From assembly GCA_012516935.1 (NCBI GenBank), contig JAAYVZ010000155.1, positions 1-33,305 on the forward strand: a DNA stretch of 33,305 bases, given 5' to 3'. The DNA comes from Holophagae bacterium. Lineage in GTDB: Bacteria; Acidobacteriota; Thermoanaerobaculia; Thermoanaerobaculales; Thermoanaerobaculaceae. How positions within the stretch are numbered: position 1 is the first letter of the stretch; each line of letters opens with the position of its first letter. A program made the position numbers and the translations under genes. The notes under the pieces are model-generated. The model saw only the letters and a program-made list of their open reading frames with translations. It was not told the DNA's origin and did no database searches. Positions 8,825-28,717 of the stretch are shown here, piece after piece.

Positions 8825-9055
8825 ATGGCCTGCGCAGCACACGAGATCAGACACGGCTCGGTCAGCGTCGGCAGCGGTCCCCACCGCGCCCTGGTGATCG
8901 CCGACCGAGGTGACCGGGCTTTCGTCGTCGCCGTCGACTTCGCAACGCCACCGGTGGTAGGCGATCGCTTCGCCTACCAGGGACTGACCTGGGAGGTCAC
9001 CCGTCCGAAGACCATGCAGCGCGGTCTCGTCGCCTGCCCGCTGCGCCGCCGCTGA
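8825..9055 (+). CDS. Small hypothetical protein, 76 residues
   Basis: The ORF starts at ATG 8825, preceded by GGGGGAGG, and encodes MACAAHEIRHGSVSVGSGP and so on, ending in CPLRRR. The pattern of alternating hydrophobic residues (RALVIADRGDRAFVVAVDFATPPVVGDRFAYQGLTWEV) suggests a small all-beta protein. There is no signal peptide or membrane segment. The frame is open a little further upstream to 8759, but that part would run through the hairpin. I do not recognise a family. It stands alone between the selenoprotein and the glycine cleavage operon, with more than 150 bases free on each side. Confidence 0.45.
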   Translation: MACAAHEIRHGSVSVGSGPHRALVIADRGDRAFVVAVDFATPPVVGDRFAYQGLTWEVTRPKTMQRGLVACPLRRR

Positions 9056-9323
9056 GGCCCACCTTCCCGACCCTCGTCTCGACGCCAGCATCGCTGGGCT
9101 TGGCGACGGCTTCGTGCCTGGCTGTACCGACGAGAGCGAGGGCCGCGTCATGATGGAGATCCCGGATGTCTCCGAGTAGGCGCTGCTCCAGCGCTTCTCC
9201 ACCAAGCCGGGGCTGACGTGTGTCAACCAGGCAGGTGGGTAGAGGTGACAGCAGCGGTGGTTGCCGGTCGGAAGGGGGGGTGATAGGCTCTGTAGCCGGC
9301 GCCCCGAGCGCCAGGAGAGCACG

Positions 9324-10430
9324 ATGACCCACCACGAGCTGCTGCGTACCCCCCTTTTCGACTGCCATGTCGAAGCCAAGGCCCGCATCGTTCCGTTCGC
9401 TGGCTTCGAGATGCCCGTGCAGTACGTCGGGGTGATGGAAGAACACAAGGCGGTGCGGACGGCGGTCGGGATGTTCGACGTCTCGCACATGGGTGAGATC
9501 GACGTCGTCGGTCGGCGGGCGCTGGAGTTCGTGCAATACGTAACCTGCAACGATGCCTCGAAGCTCGTGCCGGGTCGGGCGCAATACTCGGGGCTGATGA
9601 CCAGGCGGGGCACCTTCGTGGACGACCTCCTGGTTCACAAGTTCGATGACGAGCACTACCTCCTGGCCGTCAACGCGGCCAACAAGGACAAGGACTACGC
9701 CTATTTGTGCGCGCAGACCGAAGAGTTCACCCACGTCGAGGTGAACGACCGCTCGGCGGATTACGCGCAGATCGCCGTACAGGGGCCCAAGGCGCTGCAG
9801 GTGCTGCAGCGGCTCACGCCGGTCACGCTCGGAGACATCAAGTACTACCGTTTTGTCGAGGGGAAGGTCGACGGAGAGCCTGCGATCATCGCCCGAACGG
9901 GGTATACCGGCGAGGATGGCTTCGAGATCTATCTCGACCCGACCGCAGCCTCGGGGCTGTGGCGCACGCTGCTCGAGGTCGGCAAGGGGGAGGGAATCAT
10001 GCCGTGCGGTCTCGGGTGCCGCGACACACTCCGCTTCGAGGCAGGTATGCCACTGTATGGTAATGAAATCGATGACACCACCACGCCTTTCGAGGCAGGT
10101 CTTGGCTGGATCGTCAAGCTGGAGAAAGGGGCGTTCCTTGGGCGCGACGCCCTGCTACGCCAGGAGGCCGAGGGGGTCGGACGCAAGCTGATCGGTTTCG
10201 CGGTGACGGGACGAGGTATCGCCCGCCACGGCTACCCGATCTGGTACGGCGGGGAGAACGTGGGGGTGGTGACGTCCGGATCGCATGCGCCAACCCTCGG
10301 TAAGGCACTCGGCATGGGGTACCTGCCGGTCGAGTTGGCGACGGTCGGCACGCAGATCGAGGTCGAGATCCGCGGGCAGATGGTGGCGGCAGAGGTGGTC
10401 GAGATGCCGTTCTATCGGCGGGCCCGCTGA
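9324..10430 (+). CDS. gcvT: Glycine cleavage system T protein (aminomethyltransferase)
   Basis: GcvT transfers the methylene group from the aminomethyl-lipoyl arm of GcvH to tetrahydrofolate and releases ammonia. The 368-residue length is normal. Recognisable parts are RTPLFDCHVEAKARIVPFAGFEMPVQY at the N-terminus, VGMFDVSHMGEI, the GYTGEDGFEIY motif, CGLGCRDTLRFEAGMPLYGNE and the C-terminal barrel segment RGIARHGYPIWYGGENVGVVTSG. The start is ATG 9324 with AGGAGAG upstream; the open frame upstream (to 9261) is not GcvT-like. It is the first gene of a tight operon gcvT-gcvH-gcvPA-gcvPB. No glycine riboswitch was recognised in the 268 bases before it. Confidence 0.96.
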   Translation: MTHHELLRTPLFDCHVEAKARIVPFAGFEMPVQYVGVMEEHKAVRTAVGMFDVSHMGEIDVVGRRALEFVQYVTCNDASKLVPGRAQYSGLMTRRGTFVDDLLVHKFDDEHYLLAVNAANKDKDYAYLCAQTEEFTHVEVNDRSADYAQIAVQGPKALQVLQRLTPVTLGDIKYYRFVEGKVDGEPAIIARTGYTGEDGFEIYLDPTAASGLWRTLLEVGKGEGIMPCGLGCRDTLRFEAGMPLYGNEIDDTTTPFEAGLGWIVKLEKGAFLGRDALLRQEAEGVGRKLIGFAVTGRGIARHGYPIWYGGENVGVVTSGSHAPTLGKALGMGYLPVELATVGTQIEVEIRGQMVAAEVVEMPFYRRAR

Positions 10431-10451
10431 GCATTCCGGAAGGAGAGAACG

Positions 10452-10838
10452 ATGGCACAACCAACTGATCGGAAGTACTCTCGCACCCACGAGTGGGCGA
10501 TGCTCGCCGGCGACGTCGTGACGGTCGGCATCACGCAGTTCGCTCAGGAACAGCTCGGCGATGTCGTCTTCGTGGAGCTGCCAGCCGCCGGCGGAGCGGT
10601 GGAGGCTGGCAAGGCATGCGGCACCATCGAGTCGGTGAAGGCGGTGTCCGAGATCCTGTCGCCGGTCACCGGCGAGGTGGTTGAGGCCAACGCCGCGCTC
10701 GAGGGGCGCCCTGAGCTCGTGAACCAGGACCCGTTCGGCGAGGGGTGGCTGGTGCGTGTGAAGGTCGGTACCGGGGCGCTCGACCATCTCATGGATGCGG
10801 CGGCGTACGAGGCGTTTCTGGCGGAAGAAGGTCACTGA
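10452..10838 (+). CDS. gcvH: Glycine cleavage system H protein (lipoyl carrier)
   Basis: GcvH shuttles the aminomethyl group between the P, T and L proteins on a lipoyl-lysine arm. The 128-residue length is typical. The conserved opening SRTHEWAML is followed by VGITQFAQEQLGDVVFVELP and the lipoylation site GTIESVKAVSEI, where K63 is the modified lysine. AAGGAGAG lies just before ATG 10452, 21 bases after the gcvT stop. Its TGA overlaps the gcvPA ATG by one base (TGATG). Confidence 0.97.
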   Translation: MAQPTDRKYSRTHEWAMLAGDVVTVGITQFAQEQLGDVVFVELPAAGGAVEAGKACGTIESVKAVSEILSPVTGEVVEANAALEGRPELVNQDPFGEGWLVRVKVGTGALDHLMDAAAYEAFLAEEGH

Positions 10839-12199
10839 TGCACCGCTACCTGGCGGGATCCGATGACCGCCGGAGGATGCTGGAGCGGATTGGCTGCACC
10901 TCGGTGGAGGAGCTGTTCGCTTCGATCCCGGCGGAGGTGCGTTGCGGCCCGCTGGAGCTGCCTCCGGGACGAAGCGAGGAGGAGGTCCGGCGCGAGTTTT
11001 GGGGGTTGGCGGGGCGTAACCTGACAACCGAGTGCGCAGCCTGCTTTTTGGGCGCTGGCGTCTATCGGCACGTCCAGCCGGCGGTGGTTGACGCGTTGCT
11101 GTGGCGAGGTGAGCTGTTTACCGCCTACACGCCGTACCAGCCCGAGGTATCGCAAGGGACGCTGCAGGCGATATTCGAGTTCCAGACGTTCGTCTGCCAG
11201 CTCACCGAGATGGACGTGGCCAATGCGTCGATGTACGACGGAGCGACAGCGGTCGTCGAAGCGGCGCTGCTCGCCCGCCGGGTGCTTCCGGCGCGCAACC
11301 GGGTAGTGCTGGCGGCCACGCTTCACCCTGACTCCAAGGCGGTGCTGCGCACGTACGCCGAGGCGCAGGGCATCGAGCTGACCGAGGTCAGATGGGACGA
11401 GGCGGGGCGCCTCGAGGCGGGCAGCCTCACCGACGCGCTGGGCCCGGATGTGTGCGCGGTCATCGTCCAGTCGCCGAACGTCTTCGGCGTGATCGAGGAC
11501 CTCCAAGCGGTGGGCGCGGCGGCGAAGGGGGCGGGAGCACTCGCTGTGCACGCGGTTGCCGAGGCCACGTCGTTGGGCATTCTGGCTCCGGGCGGTCGCT
11601 TCGGGTTCGACGTGGTGTGTGGCGAGCTCCAGGCGTTCGGGATCCCGGCTTCGTTCGGTGGACCGTTGCTCGGGTTTTTTGCCGTCCGCCAGAACCATCT
11701 TCGCCAGATGCCGGGGAGGCTCGTCGGTGAGACGGTCGACGTCGACGGTAGGCGTGCTTTCGTGCTCACGCTATCGACGCGCGAGCAGCACATTCGGCGA
11801 GCGAAAGCAACCTCCAATATCTGTACCAACCACGGTCTGATGGCGCTGGCCGCCACGATCGTGCTCTCGCTGCTCGGGAAGAAGGGTGTGCGCGAAGTGG
11901 GGGTGGCATCTCACAGCCTGGCGGAGTACGTCAAGTCAGGGATCAGAGCACAGCGGAGGGACGACGGACGTGGCGTGCGGCTGGCGTTCGATGGCAGCCC
12001 GACGTACAACGAGTTCCTGGTGCTGCACGACGACCCGGATGGTCTGTTGGCGCAGATGCAGCGCGAAGGGATCCTGGGAGGCGTGGCCACCCCGGCGCTC
12101 GACGGTGCTCTGCCGCGCGGTGTCTTGATCGCGTTGACCGAGCGCAACACCAAGGAGGAGTGCGATCGACTCCTCGAGGCCCTGCGGAGGCTGGCATGA
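10838..12199 (+). CDS. gcvPA: Glycine dehydrogenase (decarboxylating) subunit 1
   Basis: This 453-residue protein is the N-terminal half of the two-subunit P protein, which decarboxylates glycine with pyridoxal phosphate. Family landmarks are FLGAGVYRHVQPAVVDAL, RGELFTAYTPYQPEVSQGTLQAIFEFQT and the ASMYDGATA segment. The C-terminal region has KATSNICTNHGLMAL. It lacks the PLP-binding lysine, which is in the partner subunit, as expected. The start ATG 10838 overlaps the gcvH stop. The frame is open upstream to 10745, but only as a shadow of gcvH. The 3' end overlaps gcvPB in an ATGA junction, so both subunits are probably made in equal amounts. Confidence 0.96.
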   Translation: MHRYLAGSDDRRRMLERIGCTSVEELFASIPAEVRCGPLELPPGRSEEEVRREFWGLAGRNLTTECAACFLGAGVYRHVQPAVVDALLWRGELFTAYTPYQPEVSQGTLQAIFEFQTFVCQLTEMDVANASMYDGATAVVEAALLARRVLPARNRVVLAATLHPDSKAVLRTYAEAQGIELTEVRWDEAGRLEAGSLTDALGPDVCAVIVQSPNVFGVIEDLQAVGAAAKGAGALAVHAVAEATSLGILAPGGRFGFDVVCGELQAFGIPASFGGPLLGFFAVRQNHLRQMPGRLVGETVDVDGRRAFVLTLSTREQHIRRAKATSNICTNHGLMALAATIVLSLLGKKGVREVGVASHSLAEYVKSGIRAQRRDDGRGVRLAFDGSPTYNEFLVLHDDPDGLLAQMQREGILGGVATPALDGALPRGVLIALTERNTKEECDRLLEALRRLA

Positions 12200-15957: not shown

Positions 15958-18066
15958 TCAGTGCTGTTTGGCCGGATCGGAGGCCGCGAGCTCCTCGATC
16001 AGTGCCTGGACCTCGAGGTTGAGCCCCTGGCGCCGGAACAGCACGGCATGGAGCTGTCTTTGTAACCCTTCGCCCTCGGCCCTCACTGCGTCGAGCCGAT
16101 CCGACTCGACGGGTGCCGTCTGAGCCGGCGGGTTGATCCCCATCTCGATGAGGCGGAACGCCATCATCAGCACCCCACGCCACAGTGTGTCAGGAACGGC
16201 ATGCGGGCGGTCTGGAACACGATCGATCTGCCGATAGAAAAGGTTGCTCTTGGTGAGCAGGTTGGGATGGGCGGCAAGTGCGGCGCTGAGGGCCGACTCG
16301 ACCAGGAACGACCCGCTGCGCACCGGTACCGGGGCGGCGGCTGTGGCGCGCCGCACGGTTCCGGCTACGACCTCTGCCACCGCCGACAGATCCTGGGTGT
16401 CGTTGACCATCAGCAGGCGGAGAAAGATCACCCCGAGAGAGAACGCATCGTCGCCATCGGTGAACCGAGGATACACGCGGTAGCGCACGAGCGGCAGGTG
16501 TAGACCGCCGCTGCGGGCGATTCGGCGTGCTGCAGCGGGCGCCAGAACGACTGGTTCAGAGGTGACCCGGATCTCACCCCCGGGGCCGCTGCCGAGCCGA
16601 GGGTCGAGGCGCACCACGAGCGAGGCGACGCCCAGCTCCTCCGCCCCGTCCGGGATCGCGAGCAGGAGCCAGTCGTGGGTGGATGGGCGCAGGTGCAGCC
16701 CGTGAGGGTCACGCAGGGTGGCCTCGATCCGGTAGCGGCCCGAGCCGTCGCTCTCGGCTGACACTCGCTCAATCAGCAGCTCCGCACGCCGGCGCGCCTG
16801 GGCGCTGAACTCCCGGACGCGCGGCGCGGCAAACGGAACCTTCATCTCCCGGGGCGGAAGCAGGACCGAGGCCCCGCTTCCCAGTGCCACCTCTCGGGTA
16901 CCCGAGGTGCCGAGGAGGCGGGTTCTGAAGCTCCAGAGCGCTGGCAGGAGCTCGCCCGGACGGCCCGGATCGACCACCAGGTGATCGGGATGGAGGTCGA
17001 GGTGGGGCAGGCGCAGCCGCAGGTGGTACTCTCGGACGCAACCGAGGATCTGCAGGAACAGGCTGAGCTTGAGGGTCAGGATCTCGACCGCGTCCAGACC
17101 GGACCCTGCATCGCCGAAGATGAACCCTCCCGCGTCAGGCAAGCCCGGAATCGCGGTGTCGGGCCGGCCGCCCAACCGATCGGCAAACGCCTCGAGCGAG
17201 GCCGGTACCAAGCGTGTCACGATGTAGGGGCTTTCGGTCGACGAGAAAAGGTTCCACAGAGGCTGCGAGGCGGCGCCTTTGGCCCGCCTGCGGCCCGTGG
17301 CTTCGCCACCTGGCGCCCCGCCGAGGCAGGTGGCGCTCATGGCGCAGCGCAGGCACGGCGGGGCCGGCCCCTCGTGCCCGGTTCCGGAGGCAAAACGTGT
17401 CGCTGCCTCCGCCCAGGCGCGCTGCAAGTCTTCGAAGCTCCCGGCCACCTCACCCGAGGTGGCCTCGACCGGCGGCGAAACGGCCCAGAGACGAGTCTCG
17501 CGGCCTTCCTGCCGGCACTGCGGGCAGGACAGGTAGCGCTGCTCTGTACCCGCGGAAAGAGGTAGGCCGGCGGCTGCGGGAGCGGTGCCGGCGCGGTAGC
17601 TCCTGAGCGGCCCCAGACAGGTCGGACAGAATACGGCAAAAAGACGCCGCAGGAGGGTGCAGAACAGCAGGGGCGGAACGGTCGGAAGTGGAGAACAGTC
17701 CGGCGCCGGGAGGAGCAGCTCGGGGAAGCAGGAGGTGTCGCCCTGCAGCAGGGCGAGATCGGCGAGCGTGCGGACCCACCACTCGTCCCGGGAGGCGTCG
17801 AGGCCTTCCAGCTCATCCTCGGGGAAGAACCCTTCCGCAGCCTCCTCCTGTCGCAGCTTGACCACGACTGGGGTGATCACGCTCCCGGAGGCGGACACGA
17901 GTGCCCCGCGCAGGCAGCGGGTTCGCGGTGAGTCGCCGATCAGCCTCACGAAGGCGATCAATGGTGAGTCGGTCACCTCCTCCTCGAGCTCGAGGTATAT
18001 GCCGAGGTCGTTGGGGTCGAGTGGTAGGAACGGGACGAAGCGGGACGGTGGCTTGTCTGAGCTCAT
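15958..18066 (-). CDS. Kinase-like (probable pseudokinase) protein with inserted zinc ribbon, T6SS-linked
   Basis: The 702-residue product from ATG 18066 has no family I can name, but its order of motifs is that of a protein kinase. VVVKL (K70) resembles the ATP-binding lysine strand. YIVTRLVPASLEAFADRL (281-298) resembles the hinge. REYHLRLRLPHLDLHPDHLVV (345-365) contains an HxDLxPx(N/H) catalytic loop with D357 kept. The metal-binding DFG is replaced by WSF (378-380), and DDAFSLGVIFLRLL resembles subdomain IX. Between the lobes lies a zinc-ribbon-like insert with C147-x2-C150 and C181-x2-C184, and a further cysteine cluster near 238-247. No signal peptide is seen. It begins 7 bases after the stop of the TssB-TssC fusion gene, so both form one unit divergent from the T6SS core. 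A regulatory or scaffold role is inferred. Confidence 0.6.
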   Translation of the reverse strand: MSSDKPPSRFVPFLPLDPNDLGIYLELEEEVTDSPLIAFVRLIGDSPRTRCLRGALVSASGSVITPVVVKLRQEEAAEGFFPEDELEGLDASRDEWWVRTLADLALLQGDTSCFPELLLPAPDCSPLPTVPPLLFCTLLRRLFAVFCPTCLGPLRSYRAGTAPAAAGLPLSAGTEQRYLSCPQCRQEGRETRLWAVSPPVEATSGEVAGSFEDLQRAWAEAATRFASGTGHEGPAPPCLRCAMSATCLGGAPGGEATGRRRAKGAASQPLWNLFSSTESPYIVTRLVPASLEAFADRLGGRPDTAIPGLPDAGGFIFGDAGSGLDAVEILTLKLSLFLQILGCVREYHLRLRLPHLDLHPDHLVVDPGRPGELLPALWSFRTRLLGTSGTREVALGSGASVLLPPREMKVPFAAPRVREFSAQARRRAELLIERVSAESDGSGRYRIEATLRDPHGLHLRPSTHDWLLLAIPDGAEELGVASLVVRLDPRLGSGPGGEIRVTSEPVVLAPAAARRIARSGGLHLPLVRYRVYPRFTDGDDAFSLGVIFLRLLMVNDTQDLSAVAEVVAGTVRRATAAAPVPVRSGSFLVESALSAALAAHPNLLTKSNLFYRQIDRVPDRPHAVPDTLWRGVLMMAFRLIEMGINPPAQTAPVESDRLDAVRAEGEGLQRQLHAVLFRRQGLNLEVQALIEELAASDPAKQH

Positions 18067-18073
18067 GGCGACT

Positions 18074-19858
18074 CTACCTGATTGCTTGGGTTCCGAGAAC
18101 GAGGTCCACGCTGCCGCCGTAGATCGTGAAGGCTGGCCGTAGCCGCACCGAGATGTCCCACAGATGTGGCGCATTGAGAGCCGGCGCTACCTCGACCTCG
18201 ACCTCTGCGGCCAGGGGGTGAGGCTCGGCCGTGGCCAAAAAGCCGAGGAGCTGGCCGTGAACGTGGTCTTTGACGCCCTCCTCGTCAGCATGGGCAGGGC
18301 AGGCGCGCGCCGCCGCCTGGAGAGCCTTGGCGGCGACCGACGCGAAGAGCTGGTAGGGCAGGGTCGCGGACCGGAAGCTTGCCGCTGTCGCCTCGGCGGT
18401 GTCGTAACGGGCCACAGCGTGCACTGAAGGCGTTGACAGAAAGTAGGCTCGGTCGGTACCCGGGACACCCAGCAGCGGCGCAAAGCCGCTGTCGACGAGC
18501 TCGAGCGCTTTCTGGTCACTGAGCAGAGCCTCGACCGCCGCCTCGGTCGGCTCGCCTTTGCCAACCCGAGCCGTGCGAGTGGCCAAGCCGGAGAGGAGCG
18601 CCGGACCCTCAGCGCCAGCCATCGGGAATCGCGGTCCCTCGGCCAGGTACCCTTGGGCCACGGCCGCAGCCAACGCCCAGACGCCTGACCCAAAAAGAGG
18701 GCGGTTGGCAGCACCGGCGGCGGCGGCATCCCAGGCGAACCCTGCCACAGCAGCGCCAGGCTCACCCCACGCTGACCGCAGCAGCACCCGGTTGAAAGCG
18801 AGGGCCAGCCAGAGCGAGCTCTCGTCGGCACGCAGGCGGTTCCACTTGGCGTACTCAGGCCCGCGCGATTTCCGCCCCAGGTCGGGCATGGTGGCCACGA
18901 GGGAGAGCTGCTTGACACCGAAGAACTCAGGGCCAACCTCAGCAATGAACGGGACACCGAGGCTCGAGGCGAGACGCGCTGCGTGGTGCAGGCTCTCCGT
19001 GTCGCGTGGCGAGCGGTCGAAGGCATAACCGAGGACGACGAGGCCAAGCGGTGGGTCGACCTCGCCAGCGTGCTCGGCCTCGAAATGCGTGTCGTAGAAG
19101 GAGTCGAGGTAGTCGTCCTTGGAGGCCGGTTGAGCGTGAACCTGGACCGGTCCGCCAGGTTGCACCCGCGCCAGCAGCAGCTCGAGGCCGCGCCAGGCGG
19201 CCTCGAGCTCCCGCAAAGCCGGCGCATCGGCGAACGTCGCAAGCTGTAAGGTGAGCCGGTAGTCGACGGCGGCGAGTGCCGCCGCCACCGCCGGCCCGCT
19301 GCCAGCAGCCGCGGCGGCTCCCAGCGCCGTTTCCAGCGCTAGCGAGGACGTCGCCTGCACCGTCGGGACCTGCACCATGCCGAGCAGCGAGTCGACAGCG
19401 GAGGCGCCGGAGGGTGAGGCCGTCGTGGCGGCTGCCGGGCGCTCGCGTACCAGCGAGGCGAGCTCGCTGTCTCCGGCAGCCACGAGCAGACGCTCGGCGA
19501 GCTGGCCCGCTCCCGTCCGGCCGTCAGCACCATCGGCGAGTGCCTCTCGGATGCGAAGCAGGGTCGAGGTCAGGGCGTGGCCGCGGGCCAAACGCTCGGG
19601 GGCGAAGTCGGCGAGCCGGCGAAACGCGAGCGTGCAAGCCAGCTCGGGGGCGCCGACGCCGAGGCGGTTGGGCACCCGGAGTCGCACGGTGGGCTCGAGC
19701 GCAGCCATCAGCGATTCGAGGCCGTCAAGCTCCACCCAGCGGGGGGCCTCGGCCCGCCCGCCCGCGAAGTCGGAAAGCACCAGCAGGCGCAGAACGGGGG
19801 CAGGGTGCGAGCCGAAGGTCGAGGTGACTGCCGAGGTCGTGGCGGTGTCGGAGCTCAT
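18074..19858 (-). CDS. TssB-TssC fusion paralogue (T6SS sheath-like protein)
   Basis: The 594-residue protein joins both sheath subunits in one chain. Residues about 20-135 are TssB-like: LRLLVLSDFAGG, VRLRVPNRLG, then LAFRRLADFAPERLARGHAL. From about 175 it is TssC-like: LRELEAAWRGLELLLARV, a SKDDYLDSFYD segment, GVPFIAEVGPEFFGVKQL, EYAKWNRLRADESSLWLAL, and LVDSGFAPLLGVPGTDRAYFLSTPSV. The same landmarks occur in the separate tssB and tssC genes across the promoter gap. Alanine-rich linker sequence (about 140-195) joins the halves. AGGAGGGG precedes ATG 19858 at a good distance. Canonical T6SS sheaths are made of separate TssB and TssC, so this is an unusual second sheath-like protein. It may cap, nucleate or vary the sheath, which is speculation. 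Confidence 0.85.
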   Translation of the reverse strand: MSSDTATTSAVTSTFGSHPAPVLRLLVLSDFAGGRAEAPRWVELDGLESLMAALEPTVRLRVPNRLGVGAPELACTLAFRRLADFAPERLARGHALTSTLLRIREALADGADGRTGAGQLAERLLVAAGDSELASLVRERPAAATTASPSGASAVDSLLGMVQVPTVQATSSLALETALGAAAAAGSGPAVAAALAAVDYRLTLQLATFADAPALRELEAAWRGLELLLARVQPGGPVQVHAQPASKDDYLDSFYDTHFEAEHAGEVDPPLGLVVLGYAFDRSPRDTESLHHAARLASSLGVPFIAEVGPEFFGVKQLSLVATMPDLGRKSRGPEYAKWNRLRADESSLWLALAFNRVLLRSAWGEPGAAVAGFAWDAAAAGAANRPLFGSGVWALAAAVAQGYLAEGPRFPMAGAEGPALLSGLATRTARVGKGEPTEAAVEALLSDQKALELVDSGFAPLLGVPGTDRAYFLSTPSVHAVARYDTAEATAASFRSATLPYQLFASVAAKALQAAARACPAHADEEGVKDHVHGQLLGFLATAEPHPLAAEVEVEVAPALNAPHLWDISVRLRPAFTIYGGSVDLVLGTQAIR

Positions 19859-19891
19859 GGTCCCCTCCTGTGCGGCGATCGCTTCCCCCTC

Positions 19892-19897
19892 ATCATA
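19892..19897 (-). promoter_or_regulatory. Possible -10 box for the minus-strand T6SS unit
   Basis: On the minus strand TATGAT lies 34 bases before the TssB-TssC fusion start. The bases 17 upstream do not form a good -35, so support is weak. It is listed because a divergent promoter is expected in this gap. Confidence 0.25.
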
Positions 19898-19930
19898 GCT
19901 AATCTGCCCGAGGCCCGTTGGGCGCGCTCG

Positions 19931-19953
19931 AGCACGTGCTGGTCAACGTTGAC
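19931..19953. promoter_or_regulatory. Two adjacent palindromes overlapping the tssB promoter
   Basis: A perfect 10-base palindrome AGCACGTGCT (19931-19940) is followed after one base by a perfect 12-base palindrome GTCAACGTTGAC (19942-19953). The second covers most of the -35 hexamer of the tssB promoter. This is the layout of operator sites where a dimeric regulator would compete with or recruit RNA polymerase. No regulator gene is in the window. Confidence 0.4.
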
Positions 19954-19978
19954 GCGGCCGCTGCCGCTGCCTTATAAT
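19949..19978 (+). promoter_or_regulatory. Sigma70-type promoter of the tssB operon
   Basis: TTGACG (19949-19954) and a perfect TATAAT (19973-19978) are separated by 18 bases. Transcription would start near 19985, leaving a leader of about 160 bases before tssB. It is the best promoter sequence in the window. Confidence 0.7.
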
Positions 19979-20144
19979 GGCTCCACGTTGGTATTCGAAT
20001 TAGGAGCCGCCGTGTCGTGTAGTGTGGGGTGGGATCCACCGGCAAGTAGAGCGTCGACCCTCCGGTTGAAGGTACGGTGCCTTCTCAAGTGGGGAAGGTG
20101 GCGGGTCAAACCGAGGCGCTCGGCGCGGCAAAGGAGAGTCACAG

Positions 20145-20681
20145 ATGACGCGTGACCGTAGCTTCCAGAAGGAGATCCCGCCGTCGCGGGTCAACATCCG
20201 GTACGTCAAGTACACCGGCGGTGCTCAGGAGCAGGTCGAGCTGCCCCTCAAGCTCCTGCTGCTCGGGGACTACACCGGCAGGGCCGACGCCACACCGCTC
20301 GAGGAGCGCCAGAAAATCAGTGTCAATAAGGACAACTTCGAGGCCGTGATGAGGGAGCAGAACCTGCGGCTATCGATGGTCGTCCCGAACCGGCTCTCCG
20401 GGGTGGAAGGCGACGAGATGTCCGTGAACTTGGCCCTCGAGTCGTTGGACTCTTTCAACCCAGACGATATCGTGAGGCAGGTTCCGGAGCTCACGAAAAT
20501 GCTGGAGATCCGCGACTTGCTCGTGGACCTCAAGGCTCGCGTCATCACCAACAAGCGGTTCCGTCAGGCGTTGGAGCGGATCGTCAAGGACCCGTCGCAG
20601 ATCGAGACGATCATGCGGGAGCTGGACCGCGTGGCTCCTCTTCCGGAGGGCGCCGCTAAGCTGCCTGAGGGGCAGGCGTGA
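20145..20681 (+). CDS. tssB: T6SS contractile sheath small subunit TssB
   Basis: TssB (VipA) pairs with TssC to build the contractile sheath around the Hcp tube. The 178-residue length is normal. Landmarks are FQKEIPPSRVNIRYVKYTGG, LPLKLLLLGDYTGR, LRLSMVVPNRLSG and LESLDSFNPDDIVRQVPEL, all family-typical. AAAGGAG lies upstream of ATG 20145. It heads the plus-strand operon tssB-tssC-hcp-tssE-tssF-tssG-tssH, about 160 bases downstream of a good promoter. An internal paralogue of this domain forms the front half of the divergent fusion gene. Confidence 0.95.
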   Translation: MTRDRSFQKEIPPSRVNIRYVKYTGGAQEQVELPLKLLLLGDYTGRADATPLEERQKISVNKDNFEAVMREQNLRLSMVVPNRLSGVEGDEMSVNLALESLDSFNPDDIVRQVPELTKMLEIRDLLVDLKARVITNKRFRQALERIVKDPSQIETIMRELDRVAPLPEGAAKLPEGQA

Positions 20682-20708: not shown

Positions 20709-22199
20709 ATGGCAAAAGAGCAAGCCAGCACCAAACCGCAAGCCGTGACGGTCGAAGAACGGGGGGTGCTCGACGGTCTGTTCGAGATGGTGGACATGGC
20801 GGCACCGGCGGCAGGTGAGGCAACCACGCCGGCTGGGAGGCTTTCCCAGGCGCTCAACATGCTCATCCGTGAGGTGGCGCTCAGCGGCCGCACGGTGGAG
20901 CACGTGGACAAAGCCCTGGTGGATAGCCTCATTGCTAGCCTCGACCAGAGAATCTCCGCCCAGGTCAACGAGATCCTGCACAACCCCGATTTCCAGCGCC
21001 TGGAGTCGGCCTGGCGGGGCCTGAAGTTCCTCATCGACCGGACCGACTTCCGGCGCAACGTGCGAATCGAGGTCCTCAACGTCTCGAAAGACGACCTGCG
21101 ATCCGACTTCGAGGACGTCCCCGAGCCGATCCAATCGGGACTGTTCAAGCACATCTACGTGCAGGAATATGACCAACCCGGCGGCGAGCCGATCGCGGCT
21201 ATCATCGGCAACTACGAGTTTTCGAACCATCCTCAGGATATTGCGTTGCTCGGCAACATGTCCAAGATCGCCGCGGCCTGCCACGCCCCTTTCATCGGCG
21301 CTGTCGGGTCCGAGTTCTTCGGTCTGCGTTCGGTCGACGAGCTGCCTCGGCTTCCCGATGTGGCGCCGATCTTCGAGCAGGCGGAGTACGCCAAGTGGCG
21401 GGCGTTCCGCGACAGCGAGGACTCCCGCTACGTGGGTCTGACGTTCCCCCGGTTCTTGCTGCGCCTGCCGTACGGAACGGAGACGATACCCACCCGCACT
21501 TTCCACTACGAGGAAGACGTCACGGGCAGCCACGGTAACTACCTATGGGGCAACGCGAGCTTCGCCTTTGCCTCGACCTTGGCGCGCTCGTTCGCCGACC
21601 ACGGTTGGTGCGTGAACATCCGTGGGCCACAGTCGGGTGGATTGGTGGAGGATCTGCCGCTGCATTTCTACGAGGCCGCCGGCGAGACCACGGTGAAGAT
21701 CCCGACCGAGGTGCTGATCTCGGACCGTCGCGAGTTCGAGCTTTCGGAGCTCGGGTTCATTCCGTTCTCGTTTTACAAGAACAAGGATTTCGCCTGCTTT
21801 TTTTCGGCCAACTCGGTGCAGAAACCGAAGAAATACCTCAACGCGGATGCCACGGCGAACAGCCGGTTGTCCGCCCGGCTGCCCTATCTCTTCCTTGTCA
21901 GCCGGCTCGCGCACTATCTGAAGGTCATCCAGCGCGAGAACATCGGTGCGGCCAAGGAGAGGGACGAGCTGCAAAGGGAGCTCGAGACCTGGATCAAGAC
22001 CCTGGTGACGGACATGAAGGACCCAGGTCCTGAGCTCAAGGCTCGTTGTCCACTCTCGGCGGCCAGGATCGCGGTCACGGATATCGCTGACAACCCGGGG
22101 TTTTACAACGTTGAGATGATGGTGCGACCACACTTCCAGATCGAGGGCGTGGACGTCAGCCTGTCGCTGGTGTCCCGTCTTCCGAAGGCCAAGAAGTGA
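20709..22199 (+). CDS. tssC: T6SS contractile sheath large subunit TssC
   Basis: TssC (VipB) is the larger sheath subunit, and it carries the part recognised by ClpV after contraction in concert with TssB. The 496-residue length is typical. Landmarks are ILHNPDFQRLESAWRGLKFLIDRTDF, LNVSKDDLRSDFED, QPGGEPIAAIIGNYEF, CHAPFIGAVGSEFFGL, EYAKWRAFRDSEDSRYVGLTFPRFLLR, and the C-terminal VSRLAHYLKVIQRENIG. AGGGGGTGAGAG precedes ATG 20709, 27 bases after tssB. It is complete and looks functional. Confidence 0.97.
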   Translation: MAKEQASTKPQAVTVEERGVLDGLFEMVDMAAPAAGEATTPAGRLSQALNMLIREVALSGRTVEHVDKALVDSLIASLDQRISAQVNEILHNPDFQRLESAWRGLKFLIDRTDFRRNVRIEVLNVSKDDLRSDFEDVPEPIQSGLFKHIYVQEYDQPGGEPIAAIIGNYEFSNHPQDIALLGNMSKIAAACHAPFIGAVGSEFFGLRSVDELPRLPDVAPIFEQAEYAKWRAFRDSEDSRYVGLTFPRFLLRLPYGTETIPTRTFHYEEDVTGSHGNYLWGNASFAFASTLARSFADHGWCVNIRGPQSGGLVEDLPLHFYEAAGETTVKIPTEVLISDRREFELSELGFIPFSFYKNKDFACFFSANSVQKPKKYLNADATANSRLSARLPYLFLVSRLAHYLKVIQRENIGAAKERDELQRELETWIKTLVTDMKDPGPELKARCPLSAARIAVTDIADNPGFYNVEMMVRPHFQIEGVDVSLSLVSRLPKAKK

Positions 22200-22285: not shown

Positions 22286-22756
22286 ATGCCACTGCCAGCA
22301 TACTTGGAGATCGGTGAAATCCCCGGATCCTGCAAGGTGCAGGGACGGGAAAACCACATGGAGATCTTGGGTTTCCGGCACGAGGTTTACATGCCGGTGG
22401 ACCGCAAGGACGGCAGCGCCTCGGGCACCAGGGTCCACAAGGATCTGATCGTCATCAAGAACTTCGACAAGGGCTCTCCGAAGCTTTACCAGTACCTCTG
22501 TAACGGCAAGATCATCGCCTCCGCCACCCTCAAGTGGTACGAGATCGACCCTTCCGGCCAGGAAAAGATGTACTTCACCCACAAGCTGGAGAACGCTCGG
22601 GTGACGGCGGTGCGGCCGTACATGCCCGACGTGGACAACCCTCATAACGAGCAGTACAAGCACATGGAAGAGGTCGCCTTCCGTTACGAAAAGATCACCT
22701 GGACTTTCTGCGACGGGAACGTCGAGTTCACCGACTCCTGGGTGGAAGGCCGCTAG
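22286..22756 (+). CDS. hcp: T6SS inner tube protein Hcp
   Basis: Hcp (TssD) hexamers stack into the tube that is propelled into target cells. The 156-residue protein begins MPLPAYLEIGEIPGSCKVQG and continues with HMEILGFRHEVYMPVD, KDLIVIKNFDKGSPKLYQYL and a C-terminal FRYEKITWTFCDGNVEFTDSW. These match the Hcp beta-barrel pattern, including the conserved YEKITWT-type strand near the end. AAAGGGGAGG precedes ATG 22286. The 86-base gap after tssC is the longest so far in the operon, which may allow separate expression, since Hcp is needed in large amounts. Confidence 0.93.
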   Translation: MPLPAYLEIGEIPGSCKVQGRENHMEILGFRHEVYMPVDRKDGSASGTRVHKDLIVIKNFDKGSPKLYQYLCNGKIIASATLKWYEIDPSGQEKMYFTHKLENARVTAVRPYMPDVDNPHNEQYKHMEEVAFRYEKITWTFCDGNVEFTDSWVEGR

Positions 22757-22885
22757 CCGTCGAGCAGTTGCCGGCATCTTTGCGGCGCGTCTGTGCTGGC
22801 GTCGCGCGCGGCGCGGCGCCAGGTTCGTCTTGTGACCGTGCTTGAGAGAACCGCACCGCGGTCCGGATGGGTGAGAGGAGGGGCC

Positions 22886-23317
22886 ATGCCCCAGCGTCGG
22901 GAGGAGCGGGGCTTTTTCGAGAGGATGCTCGGGCCCCTGCCGGGGGCTCCGCGAAGCCAGACGATCCGCTGGGTCGGCGACCCGGTGCGTGATCACCTCG
23001 CGCTTCTTCTCAACACCAGGCGCGGGGCGGTGCCGCACCTGGCGGACTACGGCCTGCCGGATGTCTCCGAGTTCTACACCGACTACCCGGGGTCGCTCGC
23101 GGAGCTACGGAAGCTGGTCGAGCAGCTCATCCGCACGTATGAGACGCGTTTGTCGAACGTACGGGTGCGGCTCGTCGAGTCCGATAGCTCCGAGTTCAGG
23201 GCCTCGTTTCTGATTTCCGGCGACCTCGAGTCCGGAGACGAGCCGGTGCGGGTCACGTACCGCACGACGATCAATAACTCGGGACGGGCGGCGCTCGATG
23301 CGGTTGGGCCAGAGTGA
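22886..23317 (+). CDS. tssE: T6SS baseplate subunit TssE (gp25-like)
   Basis: TssE resembles phage T4 gp25 and joins baseplate to sheath. From ATG 22886, with AGGAGG just before it, the product is 143 residues, as expected. The open frame extends to 22793 but without family similarity. Landmarks are GFFERMLGPLPG at the N-terminus, VRDHLALLLNTRRGAVPHLADYGLPDVSEF and a C-terminal FLISGDLESGDEPVRVTYRTTIN strand pair, all gp25-like. The gap to hcp is 129 bases with no recognised feature. Confidence 0.92.
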   Translation: MPQRREERGFFERMLGPLPGAPRSQTIRWVGDPVRDHLALLLNTRRGAVPHLADYGLPDVSEFYTDYPGSLAELRKLVEQLIRTYETRLSNVRVRLVESDSSEFRASFLISGDLESGDEPVRVTYRTTINNSGRAALDAVGPE

Positions 23318-23346: not shown

Positions 23347-25092
23347 ATGGCCGGTCCTGACCGTTATTACGAGGAGGAGCTGAACTACCTGCTGGAGGCG
23401 GGGCGCGAGTACGCGCGGCTGCACCCCGAGCGCGCGCGCTTCCTCAACCTGCCTGACCCCCGGGCTCGCGACCCGCACGTGGAACGGCTCGTCGAGTCGT
23501 TCGCGTTTCTTACCGGTCGGGTCCGCCAGCGTCTCGACGACGACTTCCCTGAGCTCACGCACGGGCTGCTCGACCTCATATTCCCGCACTACCTGAAGCC
23601 GATCCCCTCGCTCGCCCTGCTCGAGTTCCGCCCCATTCCGGGGATGCTGCGGGAGCGCCAGGTAATCCCGAAAGGTTTCCTGGTCGACTCCAAGCCTACC
23701 TCGGCCGGCGTCGCCTGCCGTTTCTCCACGACCTACCCGGTGGAGATCTACCCACTCGTGCTCGAAGCCGCTGGCATCCACACCGATGCCGCCGGCCAGC
23801 GCTCGATCCGCCTCACGCTGGGCGTGCTCGAGGGTGCGGACGCGTCGAAGGTCGACGTGGGCCGGCTCCGTGTCTGCATCTGCGGTGAGCCGGCGGAAGC
23901 GTTCGCCCTCTACCGCGTCATCCGGCAGACGCTGGAAAAGGTGGTGCTCCACTTCGGTCGCGACCGGCGGCGCGAGCTGCCGCCCTCGGTTCTCCGCCCG
24001 GTCGGGTTCGGCGAGGAGGATACGGTCCTGCAGTATCCGGCTGTGAGCTTCCCCGGGTACCGGTTGCTGTCGGAGTACTTCGCTTTTCCCGAGAAGTTCC
24101 TCTTTTTCGACCTCGTGAACCTCGGTGCGATCGAGCTCGACAAGGGCGCCAGAAGCTTCGACCTCGAGCTGCGGTTTTCGGCGCGCCTGCCCGACAAGCT
24201 GCGTCCCACCCGGGAGACGTTCCGGCTCTACGCCACGCCTATCGTCAACCTCTTTCCACGCGACGGCGAGCCGATTCTCGTCACCCAGCTCAAGACTCGT
24301 TACCGTGTGCTCGGGGATTACACCCACCCCGATGCGTACGAGGTGGTTTCGGTGGATACCGTCGAGGGCGTGCGCAGCAGTGATGGCGCACGGCAGGTTC
24401 ACCATCCTTTCTACTCGTTCGCCGCGCCGAGCCACGAGACACGGGACGAGGTCACGTTTTTTCACACGCATTCCGGACGCAGCCCATCAGGCGCTTGGGT
24501 GACGTATCTGTCGCTCGTCCACCCGACTCGCGGCCAGCTTCCGAGCGAGGAAACGCTATCGCTTCAGTTGACGTGCACCAACGGCCCGCTCTGTCGCGAG
24601 GTCGGGATCGAGGATATCAGGGTCGCGGCGGTCAAACGGCTGGATTTCGTGACGTTCCGCAACTTCACCCGGCCGACGGCACCGCTGTACCCACGGCTTG
24701 GTGAGGGCAGCGAGTGGCGCTTCGTCTCGCACCTCGCAATCAACTTCCAGTCGCTGGTTGCGCCCGGCGCGCTGTCGAACCTGCTGGCCCTGTACGACCC
24801 CGGAGGCCAGCAGGCGAACCAGCGCCGTATCGAGGCTATCCGTGCGGTGCGGGCGTTTCCCAGTGAGCGGGTGCTGGGAGGCGTGGCGGTGCGGGGGACG
24901 CGCTTGGAGGTGGAGCTGCACGAGGGTGGATTCGACGACGAGGGGGACTTGCTGCTTTTCGTCCAGGTGCTTTCGGAGTTCGTCTCGCTCTACGCCGAGA
25001 CCAACACGTTCGCCGAGCTGCAGGTGCTCCGGCGGCCATCAGGGGAGGTGCTGCGGTGCCCGCCGGTCCAGGGCAAGCAAGCGCTGCTCTGA
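23347..25092 (+). CDS. tssF: T6SS baseplate subunit TssF
   Basis: TssF forms the baseplate wedge with TssG, TssE and TssK. The 581-residue protein opens with the family signature RYYEEELNYLLEAGREYARLHPERARFL, followed by DPHVERLVESFAFLTGRVRQRLDDDFPELTHGLLDLIFPHYLKPIPS. The central region includes FHTHSGR and the C-terminus LLLFVQVLSEFVSLYAETNTFAELQV, also typical. ATG 23347 is preceded by GGGAGG. The stop overlaps the tssG start (TGATG), so the wedge subunits are translated together. Confidence 0.95.
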   Translation: MAGPDRYYEEELNYLLEAGREYARLHPERARFLNLPDPRARDPHVERLVESFAFLTGRVRQRLDDDFPELTHGLLDLIFPHYLKPIPSLALLEFRPIPGMLRERQVIPKGFLVDSKPTSAGVACRFSTTYPVEIYPLVLEAAGIHTDAAGQRSIRLTLGVLEGADASKVDVGRLRVCICGEPAEAFALYRVIRQTLEKVVLHFGRDRRRELPPSVLRPVGFGEEDTVLQYPAVSFPGYRLLSEYFAFPEKFLFFDLVNLGAIELDKGARSFDLELRFSARLPDKLRPTRETFRLYATPIVNLFPRDGEPILVTQLKTRYRVLGDYTHPDAYEVVSVDTVEGVRSSDGARQVHHPFYSFAAPSHETRDEVTFFHTHSGRSPSGAWVTYLSLVHPTRGQLPSEETLSLQLTCTNGPLCREVGIEDIRVAAVKRLDFVTFRNFTRPTAPLYPRLGEGSEWRFVSHLAINFQSLVAPGALSNLLALYDPGGQQANQRRIEAIRAVRAFPSERVLGGVAVRGTRLEVELHEGGFDDEGDLLLFVQVLSEFVSLYAETNTFAELQVLRRPSGEVLRCPPVQGKQALL

Positions 25093-26117
25093 TGGCTCGG
25101 ATGAGCGTCACCGGGCACCAGTTCGACTTCTTTCAACTGGTGTACCTCCTGGAACGGTGGCTCGATCGGCGCGCACCGGTCGGCGGGCCAGGCCCGATCG
25201 ATGACGAGGGAGTTCGCTTTCGCCCCGATGCGTCCCTGGCGTTCTCACCTGCGGACGTGATGCGGGTCGAGAAGGCCGATGCCGACGAGCGAAGGCCGGG
25301 TTCAAGCTGGGACTACCGCGTGGTCGTGAGCTTCATGGGGCTGTATGGCGTGGCTGCGCCGTCACCGGTCTACTTCTCCGAGCTGATCGGCTTCGAGGAC
25401 GTGGATCCTGACCCGCTCGTGGACTTCCTCGATCTCTTCAACCACCGCCTGATTTCGTTGTACTACCGGGCCTGGCTGCGATACCGGTACCCCTACCGGT
25501 TCGAAGTGGGAGGCGCCGACCAGCTCTCCGGCTTTCTGCTGGCGTTCCTCGGGCTCTGTGATCCAGTGTCGCGCCAGGGCTTGGGTGTCGATGCGTTTCG
25601 ACTCCTCAAGTACATCGGCTTGCTCTCGCTGCGCAGCAAACCACCCGAGGCGCTCCAGAGGGTGCTGACCGACTACCTGGGCGGTTTTCCGGTGGCGGTC
25701 CGGGAGCTGGTGCTGCGGTGGGTGGATATCGAACCGGCCAACCGCAACCGGCTGGGGCTGGGGGCGAGCACGCTCGGGCGCGACCTGCTCGTCGGCACAC
25801 GTTTGCCCGACCGCATGGGCCGCGTGCGCGTCGTCGTTGGACCGCTCGGGCTCGACCAGTTCCTTAAGCTGCTTCCCGACCGCACCCTTTTCGGCGAGGT
25901 GTGCAGTCTCATCGAGCTGCAAACATTCAAACGCTTCGCGTACGACGTGGAGCTGCGGCTGCACGGGTCGGCAGTCCCGACCCTGCAGGTCGGCGGGCCG
26001 GCCGCGGTGCGGCTGGGCTGGACCTCGTTCCTGTGCAGTGCGCCGGGACGGGATGAGGATGGCGTCGTCTGGCTGCAGCCAGCGCGGCGATCGCAGAGCA
26101 GGGAGGTGCGCGCATGA
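25092..26117 (+). CDS. tssG: T6SS baseplate subunit TssG
   Basis: TssG is the second baseplate wedge protein. Starting at ATG 25092, which overlaps the tssF stop, it has 341 residues. Landmarks are HQFDFFQLVYLLERWL at the N-terminus, the VRFRPDASLAFSPADV strand, VSFMGLYGVAAPSPVYFSEL, DPLVDFLDLFNHRLISLYYRAWLRYRYPY and the GPLGLDQFLKLLPD motif near the C-terminus, all conserved in the family. The frame is open slightly upstream to 25056, which is only overlap with tssF. The end overlaps tssH by four bases (ATGA). Confidence 0.95.
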   Translation: MARMSVTGHQFDFFQLVYLLERWLDRRAPVGGPGPIDDEGVRFRPDASLAFSPADVMRVEKADADERRPGSSWDYRVVVSFMGLYGVAAPSPVYFSELIGFEDVDPDPLVDFLDLFNHRLISLYYRAWLRYRYPYRFEVGGADQLSGFLLAFLGLCDPVSRQGLGVDAFRLLKYIGLLSLRSKPPEALQRVLTDYLGGFPVAVRELVLRWVDIEPANRNRLGLGASTLGRDLLVGTRLPDRMGRVRVVVGPLGLDQFLKLLPDRTLFGEVCSLIELQTFKRFAYDVELRLHGSAVPTLQVGGPAAVRLGWTSFLCSAPGRDEDGVVWLQPARRSQSREVRA

Positions 26118-28717
26118 TCACCCGGGACGTTCGAGCATTGCTCGGCAAGGCAAACCCGTACATGGCACGGCAGCTCGAGGCAGCAGCCGGGTTCTGTATC
26201 GCCCGGACGCACTACGAGGTAACGCTCGAGCACCTGTTCTGCAAGCTGCTGGAGGACGGGCGCGGCGATCTGGTCAAAATCCTCCGCCACTTCGGAGTCG
26301 ACGCCGGGGCGCTCGAGAGCCGCTTGCTGGCGGCGGTCGAGCAGATGCGCTTCGGCAACACCGGGCGCCCGAGCTTCTCGCCCCTGCTGCTGGACGTCAT
26401 CGAGCAGGCGTATCTCATCGGTTCGCTCGAGTACGGCTACGAGCAGATCCGGTCCGGGACCGTGCTCGCCGCCGTGCTCGCATCGGCCGGGATGTCGCCG
26501 TTTCGGTCGTACCTCGACCTGCTCGAGCCGATCCGGCTGGAGGAGCTCAAGGGCTCGTTCGCGGAGATCGTCGCCGGTTCGGAGGAGGACCGTCCGGCGA
26601 CGGGGCGTTACGGCGCGCCGCGTCCCGAACGGGTGGCCCAGCCCGGGGCGAAAGCAGACAGCGCGCTCGCGCAGTTCTGCATCGATGTCACACAGCGGGT
26701 GCGTGAGGGGGCAATTGACCCGGTCCTCGGGCGCGATGAGGAGATCCGCCAAATGGTGGACATCCTCGTGCGGCGGCGCAAGAACAACCCGATCCTGGTG
26801 GGCGAGGCGGGGGTCGGCAAGACCGCGCTCGTCGAAGGCTTGGCGCTGCGCATCGTCGCCGACGATGTGCCGGGACCGCTCAAGGACACCCGGATCCTCA
26901 ATCTCGACCTTGGGCTGCTGCAGGCCGGGGCGGGCGTCAAGGGCGAGTTCGAGAACCGCCTCAAGTCGGTCATCGCCGAGATCAACGAGGCCAAAGCGGC
27001 AGGCGAGAAGATCATCACCTTCATCGACGAGGCGCACACCCTCATCGGTGCCGGCGGCCCGGCGGGGGGTGGCGACGCCGCCAACCTCCTCAAGCCAGCG
27101 CTGGCGCGCGGTGAGCTCCGCACCATAGCCGCTACCACGTGGTCCGAGTACAAGAAGTATTTCGAGAAAGATGCGGCCCTCGCACGCCGCTTCCAGCTCG
27201 TGAAGGTGGACGAGCCGGACGAAGTCCGGGCGATCACCATGCTCCGCGGCGTGCGGTCCAAGTTCGAACAGGCGCACAACGTGCGCATCCTCGATAGCGC
27301 TGTCGTAGCTGCGGTGCAGCTCTCGCAACGCTACATCTCCGGTCGGCAGCTTCCCGACAAGGGCGTGGACGTCATGGACACCGCGTCGTCACGCGTCAAG
27401 GTAGGCCTGGACGCGAAGCCAGCGGCGATGGACCGCCTCGAGCGGCGGATCATGTACGCCGAGATGGCGCTCGCCGCGCGCCGACGCGACGTCGAGGGTG
27501 GCACGTACAAGGACGACGGCGAGATCGAGCGTCTGGAGAGCAGCATCGCTGCGGCGCACGCGGAGCTCGCCGCCATCGCGCCGCTCTGGGAGCGCGAGAA
27601 GGCGGCGGTGAGCAAGGTCATGGCGGCGCGCTCCGAGAGCGGTAGCCCCGAGGAGCTGCAGGCGGCGCTCGCCGAGCTGGCGGAGGTGCAGGGCCCAAGC
27701 CCGCTCATTCCGCTGGAGGTGACGCCGGATGTGGTGGCCTCGGTGGTGGCCGATTGGACCGGCATCCCGGTCGGCAAAATGGTACGCGACCAGGCCGGGA
27801 TCGTGCTCGAGCTCGAGCAGCAGCTCGGCAAGCGCATCATCGGTCAGGATCACGCGCTGGCGGTCCTGGGCGAGCGCATCCGAGCCGCCCGCGCCGGGCT
27901 CGGTAACCCCAACGCCCCGCAGGGCGTCTTCCTCATGGTCGGCCCTTCGGGGGTCGGCAAAACCGAGACCGGCCTCGCGCTCGCCGACCTGCTGTACGGC
28001 GGGGAGCGCTTCCTGACCACCGTCAACATGTCGGAGTACCAGGAGGCGCACACCGTGTCGCGGCTCATCGGCTCCCCACCCGGGTACGTGGGTTATGGCG
28101 AGGGCGGCGTGCTCACCGAGGCGGTGCGCCAGCGGCCGTACTCCGTCGTGCTGCTCGACGAGGTCGAGAAATCGCACGCTGACGTCATGAACCTCTTCTA
28201 CCAGGTGTTCGACAAGGGCATGCTCTCCGACGGTGAGGGGCGGGAGATCGATTTCAAGAACACGGTCCTGATCCTGACCTCCAACCTCGCCTCCGACACC
28301 ATCATGGAGATGACGGCCGGCGGTGCCACCGCCGAGGACCTCATCGAGGGGATCCGACCGGTGCTGCGTGAGCGCTTCAAGCCGGCGCTGCTCGCCCGTA
28401 TGACGATCGTGCCGTTCTTTCCGATCAGCCCCGAGAACATGCGGCGGATCGTCGACCTCAAGCTCGCTAAGGTGGCCGAACGGCTGGCCGCGAACGCCCG
28501 GGTGACGCTCGAGACCACCCCGGCGCTCGCCGACTGGGTCGCCGAGCGCTGCACGGTGGAGGAGACCGGCGCCCGCAACGTCGACCAGGTCATCGCGGGA
28601 CAGATCCTGCCGCGCATCTCGACCGAGATCCTCTCCCGCATGGCGAAGGACGAGCCGGTGGGCACGGTCAAGGCGGACGTCGGCGAGGACGGCGCGCTGA
28701 CGATCACCTTCGCCTGA
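26114..28717 (+). CDS. tssH: T6SS AAA+ ATPase ClpV (TssH)
   Basis: ClpV disassembles the contracted sheath so that its subunits can be reused. The 867-residue chain has a Clp N-domain (about 1-150), then two AAA+ modules. Walker A motifs are GEAGVGKT (230-237) and GPSGVGKT (610-617), with Walker B IITFIDEAH and VVLLDEVEKSH. The middle region (about 400-530) is helical and rich in charged residues, as in ClpB and ClpV. The segment PRTERVAQPG-like between N-domain and first module is short. It starts in an ATGA overlap with tssG. The gene context identifies it as ClpV rather than ClpB. Confidence 0.95.
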   Translation: MITRDVRALLGKANPYMARQLEAAAGFCIARTHYEVTLEHLFCKLLEDGRGDLVKILRHFGVDAGALESRLLAAVEQMRFGNTGRPSFSPLLLDVIEQAYLIGSLEYGYEQIRSGTVLAAVLASAGMSPFRSYLDLLEPIRLEELKGSFAEIVAGSEEDRPATGRYGAPRPERVAQPGAKADSALAQFCIDVTQRVREGAIDPVLGRDEEIRQMVDILVRRRKNNPILVGEAGVGKTALVEGLALRIVADDVPGPLKDTRILNLDLGLLQAGAGVKGEFENRLKSVIAEINEAKAAGEKIITFIDEAHTLIGAGGPAGGGDAANLLKPALARGELRTIAATTWSEYKKYFEKDAALARRFQLVKVDEPDEVRAITMLRGVRSKFEQAHNVRILDSAVVAAVQLSQRYISGRQLPDKGVDVMDTASSRVKVGLDAKPAAMDRLERRIMYAEMALAARRRDVEGGTYKDDGEIERLESSIAAAHAELAAIAPLWEREKAAVSKVMAARSESGSPEELQAALAELAEVQGPSPLIPLEVTPDVVASVVADWTGIPVGKMVRDQAGIVLELEQQLGKRIIGQDHALAVLGERIRAARAGLGNPNAPQGVFLMVGPSGVGKTETGLALADLLYGGERFLTTVNMSEYQEAHTVSRLIGSPPGYVGYGEGGVLTEAVRQRPYSVVLLDEVEKSHADVMNLFYQVFDKGMLSDGEGREIDFKNTVLILTSNLASDTIMEMTAGGATAEDLIEGIRPVLRERFKPALLARMTIVPFFPISPENMRRIVDLKLAKVAERLAANARVTLETTPALADWVAERCTVEETGARNVDQVIAGQILPRISTEILSRMAKDEPVGTVKADVGEDGALTITFA

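Follow-up and report, generated by a model that had tools for sequence, protein, structure and literature searches.

How does a type VI secretion system (T6SS) sheath start, stop and keep its length? This question is touched by a gene lying beside the sheath genes tssB and tssC in the stretch of DNA analysed here, whose whole length of 33,305 nucleotides we call the window. The gene encodes both sheath components in one chain and lies next to a complete set of the separate ones. In the present study we have examined its domains, its strand-exchange elements, its relatives in other genomes and the roles that it may play.

The fusion gene and its locus

The TssB-TssC fusion gene is one open reading frame of 594 amino acids on the minus strand, for which the exact coordinates (18074..19858) were confirmed, with a strong ribosome-binding site (AGGAGGGGACC) 5' of its ATG. 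The claim of an earlier note on this DNA, that TssB and TssC are fused here, is borne out by Pfam, since T6SS_VipA (PF05591) matches residues 23-110 (E 1.9e-10, 41.2 bits against a cut-off of 24) and VipB (PF05943) residues 194-480 (E 1.9e-41, 142.5 bits against a cut-off of 27). The TssB-like core comprises residues 23-138 (19445..19792, minus strand), where our own TssB HMM also matches (65-155) and the structure model reaches a pLDDT of 41-86 by blocks; the TssC-like body comprises residues 190-480 (18419..19291, minus strand) and is matched by our own TssC HMM and by PDB entries as well. A phmmer search of the PDB found TssC chains, with 5n8n_B at the top (E 5.4e-34, residues 189-588), and gave weak matches to TssB chains, of which 4uqz_B scored best (E 7.4e-5). 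Both NCBIfam equivalogs stay far under their cut-offs (TIGR03355, 161.9 against 271.5; the TssB equivalog, 35.8 against 97.25), which indicates a diverged protein; its identity to canonical TssC is 29%.

The canonical pair, divergent from the fusion as the same note had stated, is complete and lies on the plus strand (tssB, 20145..20681; tssC, 20709..22199). It is followed on that strand by hcp/tssD (22286..22756), tssE (22793..23317) and tssF (23347..25092), all recognised like the pair by Pfam and NCBIfam, then by tssG (25056..26117; NCBIfam) and by a clpV/tssH-like AAA+ ATPase gene (26114..28717; Pfam AAA_2, AAA_lid_9 and ClpB_D2-small), which we name from its position and domains. Contig C125 of the window's genome (G000) encodes TssK, DotU/TssL-like and TssM-like proteins and a TssA match was located on C120; together with the tss genes of the window these matches make the T6SS look nearly complete. 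The TssM-like protein (C125, 3280-4692) matches TIGR03348 in its N-terminal half only. PF06761 (TssM) gave no match in 13 of the 30 fusion genomes, namely G000 and 12 others; in all 13, the N-terminal half of TIGR03348 was matched, under its cut-off, and DotU was found. A missing TssM is thereby ruled out, and the membrane complex is present in a diverged form.

The intergenic region common to the fusion and tssB (19859..20144, 286 bp) is in part conserved in a congener (G001). It contains one sigma70-like site on the plus strand (TTGACG-18-TATAAT, 19949-19978), where shuffled sequences would give 0.1, and the congener retains most of this site. A TATGAT was noticed by eye on the minus strand (19892-19897), inside the conserved block. 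On the other side of the fusion lies a kinase-like gene of 702 amino acids (15958..18066, minus strand), its ATG 7 bases past the fusion stop codon. The label reflects one motif read by eye only, because the protein matches nothing in NCBIfam or the PDB, and nothing in Pfam below E 0.1.

In the congener the fusion is 62% identical over the whole length and is likewise flanked by tssB and the kinase-like gene. The nearest named relative is a Thermoanaerobaculaceae MAG (JALOLB010000037.1), which is the same locus as that of congener G001, and a contig scan with exact back-translated patterns found one relative. The comparison with the congener by the Nei-Gojobori method gave a dN of 0.309, a dS of 1.13 and a dN/dS of about 0.27 for the fusion, against a dN of 0.086 and a dS of 0.61 for tssB (173 codons). 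The fusion is thus under purifying selection, yet it is changing faster than tssB, with a dN 3.6 times higher; the kinase-like gene has a rate similar to that of the fusion (dN 0.299, dS 1.08). A chance open reading frame or an assembly artefact is ruled out by the congener copy, by the dN/dS and by the presence of fusions in G096 and G161, both of them genomes of a single contig.

Fusions in other genomes and their lineages

A profile of 21 fusions was run on 396 Acidobacteriota genomes and matched 62 of them, three weakly (G218, G235 and G270, E above 1e-7). One reading frame spanning the TssB and TssC parts was counted by hand in 29 of the 396; the count includes G211, G379 and G164, each with two matches in one frame, and G076, in which a stop is reported within the matched stretch but a 505-aa ORF (L063) is open. 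The start codons of L057, L037, L040 and L063 were set by homology. All 29 genomes also have a canonical tssC match, so the fusion is not a replacement. Nor does it replace TssA, a candidate role ruled out by the finding of TssA in 29 of 30 fusion genomes (it was missed in G164). The long type, to which the window protein belongs, or its diverged kin is present in nine genomes (G000, G220, G199, G233, G400, G081, G105, G068 and G164) and a short type in 20. Beyond Acidobacteriota the search covered plasmid records, 23 of which match the core of a Leisingera fusion over 97-100% in one piece: 22 from Rhodobacterales and one from the Burkholderiales member Eleftheria terrae. The matching plasmid genes are annotated 'contractile sheath large subunit'. 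Three single-protein scans of viral contigs, with canonical TssC and two fusions, returned no relative, and an alignment of canonical TssC returned three loci with canonical tssB and tssC only. The IMG/VR contigs L076, L077 and L078 hold canonical T6SS tssB-tssC and are probably not viral.

A careful tree of the TssC core (38 rows, 305 columns), from which L048, L049, L052a, L052b, L058, L060 and several short fusions and canonical sequences were left out, has one clade for the short fusions (100/99) and a second for the four of the long type, from the window (W), L057, L036 and L037 (100/100). A further branch (98/96) separates the long fusions, which stand beside the canonical TssCs from the window, L024, L049 and L066, from the short fusions, which stand with the other canonicals; this suggests two fusion events. 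A tree constrained to hold all 18 fusions in one clade is worse by 24 log-likelihood units (AU p 0.036, with long branches present and the test run after the FastTree tree had been seen, from which fusL_L048 and fusL_L049 were dropped as under 60% filled). The evidence for two origins is therefore moderate, the single clade being only moderately rejected. A third fusion (L056, in G161; 7522-9117, 531 aa) lies among the canonical sequences in the tree, keeps the TssB N-terminus and joins its parts without a linker. It adjoins a TssA-like gene, and its end looks frame-broken.

TssCL of roseobacters, described in 2022, has TssB and TssC domains in one chain and is reported, with two VipA domains and 1,684 aa, as alphaproteobacterial only and of untested function (PMC9515649). 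The Leisingera sp. M527 copy that we examined is 1,207 aa long, with a single VipA match. TssCL resembles the window fusion in uniting both domains and in being extra to tssB and tssC. However, the TssCL-type proteins examined (Leisingera, Ruegeria, Qingshengfaniella) belong to the short clade, bear long acidic tails and are without the C-terminal domain of TssC, whereas the window fusion belongs to the other clade, with other canonical TssCs, appears to keep that domain and has no tail in its 594 aa. A literature search, largely without subscription journals, found no publication on native TssB-TssC fusions beyond TssCL. The fusions in Acidobacteriota and in one betaproteobacterium, in two clades, are new, and the survey corrects the published view of TssB-TssC fusions as confined to Alphaproteobacteria. 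The earlier note had named, as grounds against its idea, that such fusions might be common and already characterised, and half of this holds: they are common among T6SS-bearing Acidobacteriota (29 genomes) and one lineage is published as TssCL (PMC9515649), but no functional characterisation was found in the literature searched.

The fusion is not a second TssC of the ImpD/TssC40 kind either. The second TssC of R. etli, which from its position we take to be ImpD/TssC40, is likewise a diverged sheath paralogue beside a canonical pair, but it lacks the TssB part and the N-terminal helix and has a full C-terminal domain. TssC40 (ImpD in Rhizobium and Agrobacterium) is reported not to be redundant for Hcp secretion (PMC3702570). 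Paralogues like it, of 446-447 aa and without TssB or the N-terminal helix, were observed in L048 (9493-10833) and L049 (10318-11661), where they share a gene cluster with canonical tssC and a fusion; in L048 a sigma54 activator gene adjoins the fusion. One genome (L052) has two tandem, strongly diverged sheath-like genes (8341-9798 and 9803-11362).

The neighbourhoods of the fusions vary. The vgrG gene adjoins the fusion in L037, Leisingera, Ruegeria, Phaeobacter and Parasedimentitalea, and is separated from it by one small gene in Qingshengfaniella; tssK adjoins it in L039 and Eleftheria. In the five loci of family f33 whose neighbouring genes were clustered (L040, L042, L043, L045 and L063) the fusion lies beside the housekeeping genes mnmG-parA-parB, away from T6SS core genes, as seen from Pfam for L040 and from clusters for all five, not all three genes being called in L043. 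An unnamed family of 256-300 aa occurs next to or near fusions of both lineages (L036, 11109-11897; L055, 8238-9020; L051, 12064-12966; L046, 11321-12091). It is present in 6 of the 396 Acidobacteriota genomes, all six with a T6SS sheath match and four with a fusion; it has no convincing Pfam or NCBIfam match and was found neither in the plasmids nor in the window's genome.

Strand exchange, contraction residues and linker

The handshake sheet of the sheath is formed by TssC beta11-12, TssC beta13 of the same protofilament and TssB beta1 of the neighbouring protofilament in the same disc (PMC5807055). In the alignments the donor strand beta1 of TssB and its linker are missing from the window protein and from its congener, and their place is taken by an S/T/A-rich N-terminus (residues 1-21; 19796..19858, minus strand) with no predicted strand and a pLDDT below 50. 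A diverged TssC C-terminal (gp25-like) domain appears to be retained (residues 488-594; 18077..18397, minus strand), with strands predicted, in weak models, at 553-560, 563-573 and 586-593; the C-terminus aligns as far as position 468 of 473 in TIGR03355 and 486 of 496 in our own TssC HMM, and PF18945 (VipB_2) gave no match. The view of the earlier note that the fusion could not join the normal strand exchange unchanged thus stands, with the donor strand missing by alignment and the TssC C-terminal strands apparently kept. The fusion shares with canonical VipA/VipB the domain order, the body and, apparently, the C-terminal strands; unlike them it is one chain, is devoid of the donor strand and its linker, and has the TssC N-terminal helix inside the chain.

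The loss of the donor strand is read from the alignment because both AlphaFold models of the fusion, made from 4 and 8 rows, are weak (mean pLDDT 49.8 and 54.6, pTM 0.39 and 0.41). The results of a Foldseek search with the fusion model were headed by nine sheath chains of TssC (E at most 3.9e-8), and one chain of TssB stood in eleventh place (E 0.026, prob 1.00). VIA-align gave Z scores of 9.2-10.8 for these nine TssC entries, and a Z of 7.2, within the range of unrelated rows, for the match of the C-terminal part to T4 gp25.

In the other long fusions L036 and L037 beta1 is uncertain, as their aligned N-termini could hide a degenerate strand. The short lineage, which includes TssCL, has lost the whole TssC C-terminal domain in 24 of 24 proteins (occupancy 0.00-0.03), and its N-termini, judged by eye, are often beta1-like in length and alternating pattern. 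Each lineage therefore appears to be without a different part of the exchange.

Two residues of the body, K338 (18845-18847) and D448 (18515-18517, both minus strand), align with K223 and D333 of VipB, in a numbering inferred by offset. In Vibrio cholerae these residues form an inter-protomer contact, and D333A abolishes contraction (PMC5797969). The pair is K/D in the window protein, L057 and L036, and K/E in L037; over 11 long-type rows, L056 included, K is kept in 8 and D or E is aligned in 5. Among the 24 proteins of the short lineage, 2 retain K and 8 retain D.

ClpV binds TssC at its N-terminal helix (PMC5048182). A segment of the fusion linker, VDSLLGMVQVP (residues 155-165; 19364..19396, minus strand), resembles this ClpV-recognised helix of the window's own TssC, LDGLFEMVDMA. 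Of the 34 fusions tested, 18 have a strict ClpV-helix-like pattern in the linker, against 1.4 expected from shuffles; fusL_L052a, which has no TssB match, was omitted. Most Rhodobacterales fusions that were read have acidic N-terminal tails of about 500-630 aa, and LDx[LI]L motifs number 7-13 per protein in L069 (12084-15707), L070 (10459-13650), L071 (10303-13713) and L074 (1429-4677), against a shuffled mean of 0.4-0.6.

Candidate roles of the fusion

We propose, tentatively and with rather less than even confidence, that the fusion is a minor subunit at an end of the sheath, as a starter ring or a terminator, and not bulk sheath. The protein itself is a natural paralogue of the sheath protomer, with TssB and TssC in a single chain and encoded next to the normal pair; it may dock on the canonical TssBC lattice and receive strands. 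As it would be unable to pass a TssB strand to its disc neighbour, it could not propagate the sheath, and its action would be confined to an end or be that of a minor modifier, possibly setting where the sheath begins or stops. Such a role would be shared with the TssA/TagA caps and the gp25/TssE initiators, though the fusion has no Pfam match to those families and both TssE and TssA are present separately.

This end-subunit proposal is consistent with the domain make-up and divergence of the fusion, the absent donor strand beside apparently kept C-terminal strands, the purifying selection, the constant company of canonical tssC (29/29), the presence of TssA in 29 of 30 fusion genomes and the lack of some handshake part in both lineages. 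The K223/D333 equivalents of the long fusions and the linker motif (18 of 34 against 1.4 expected) point the same way, as does work in V. cholerae that gives the VipA linker a role in contraction and shows linker-mutant subunits to be dominant when built into sheaths together with wild-type ones (PMC5797969). A hint of the baseplate end comes from other genomes, in which vgrG or tssK is a neighbour of the fusion; the window copy is divergent from tssB and away from baseplate genes, and this argues against the proposal, as do the five f33 loci beside housekeeping genes, the largely lost K and partly lost D of the short lineage, the N-termini of L036 and L037 that could hide a degenerate strand, and the weakness of the structure models. 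A broader idea, which we consider distinctly speculative, is that two T6SS lineages independently made a one-armed single-chain protomer as a dedicated sheath-end component, in about half of the sampled T6SS-bearing Acidobacteriota and in roseobacters, and that the part lost, either the TssB donor strand or the TssC acceptor domain, would show which contact is dispensable at that end. A natural subunit without one strand-exchange element may serve as a tool to probe each arm, at the ends and along the sheath.

It is less probable that the fusion, as a minor subunit, co-assembles along the whole canonical sheath, where it would make the exchange of strands weaker or tune it and in this way brake contraction or set it off. 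The kept K and D of the middle domain would suit such a subunit, and so would the dominant co-assembly of V. cholerae subunits with a changed VipA linker (PMC5797969); against it, the mesh would be left with a hole at every point where a protomer without the donor strand was inserted, and the identity to canonical TssC is only 29%. An adaptor or chaperone directed at ClpV or TssBC and working off the sheath, for instance by recruiting ClpV or holding free protomers, seems a little more doubtful still. The ClpV-helix-like motif of the linker agrees with it, as do the acidic Rhodobacterales tails with their many LDx[LI]L motifs in four proteins; however, the Phaeobacter and Eleftheria fusions have only 2 of these motifs, and an adaptor would not need the whole sheath body that is kept. 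Furthermore, the LLDxIL motif is absent from the N-terminus of the canonical TssC of Leisingera though the fusion there has repeats of it, so that the Leisingera tail need not be related to ClpV, and a ClpV hub was demoted as the leading idea for this reason.

Two other explanations are improbable to the same degree. Phage and pyocin sheaths are single-chain, and since both protomer halves are present the fusion could be imagined to form a second, alternative sheath, alone or with canonical TssB. Nevertheless, Pfam and NCBIfam reveal in the window no duplicate set of genes for tube, baseplate or ATPase, the donor strand is missing and the second lineage is without the entire C-terminal domain; the sequence speaks rather for a minor subunit, or one acting at an end, than for a second full sheath. 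The fusion could instead be a regulatory pseudo-sheath working with the adjacent kinase-like protein, given the common strand, the 7-base gap, the pair kept in the congener and the similar rates of change. The link between both genes, which the earlier note had raised, holds locally and fails in general: the kinase-like family is found in 4 of the 30 fusion genomes and adjoins the fusion in 2, and nothing in Pfam, NCBIfam or the PDB matches it clearly. Finally, a functionless decaying duplicate, for which the fast divergence might speak (dN 3.6 times that of tssB), is the most improbable in view of the dN/dS of about 0.27, the intact frame and ribosome-binding site and the 29 genomes with long fusions.
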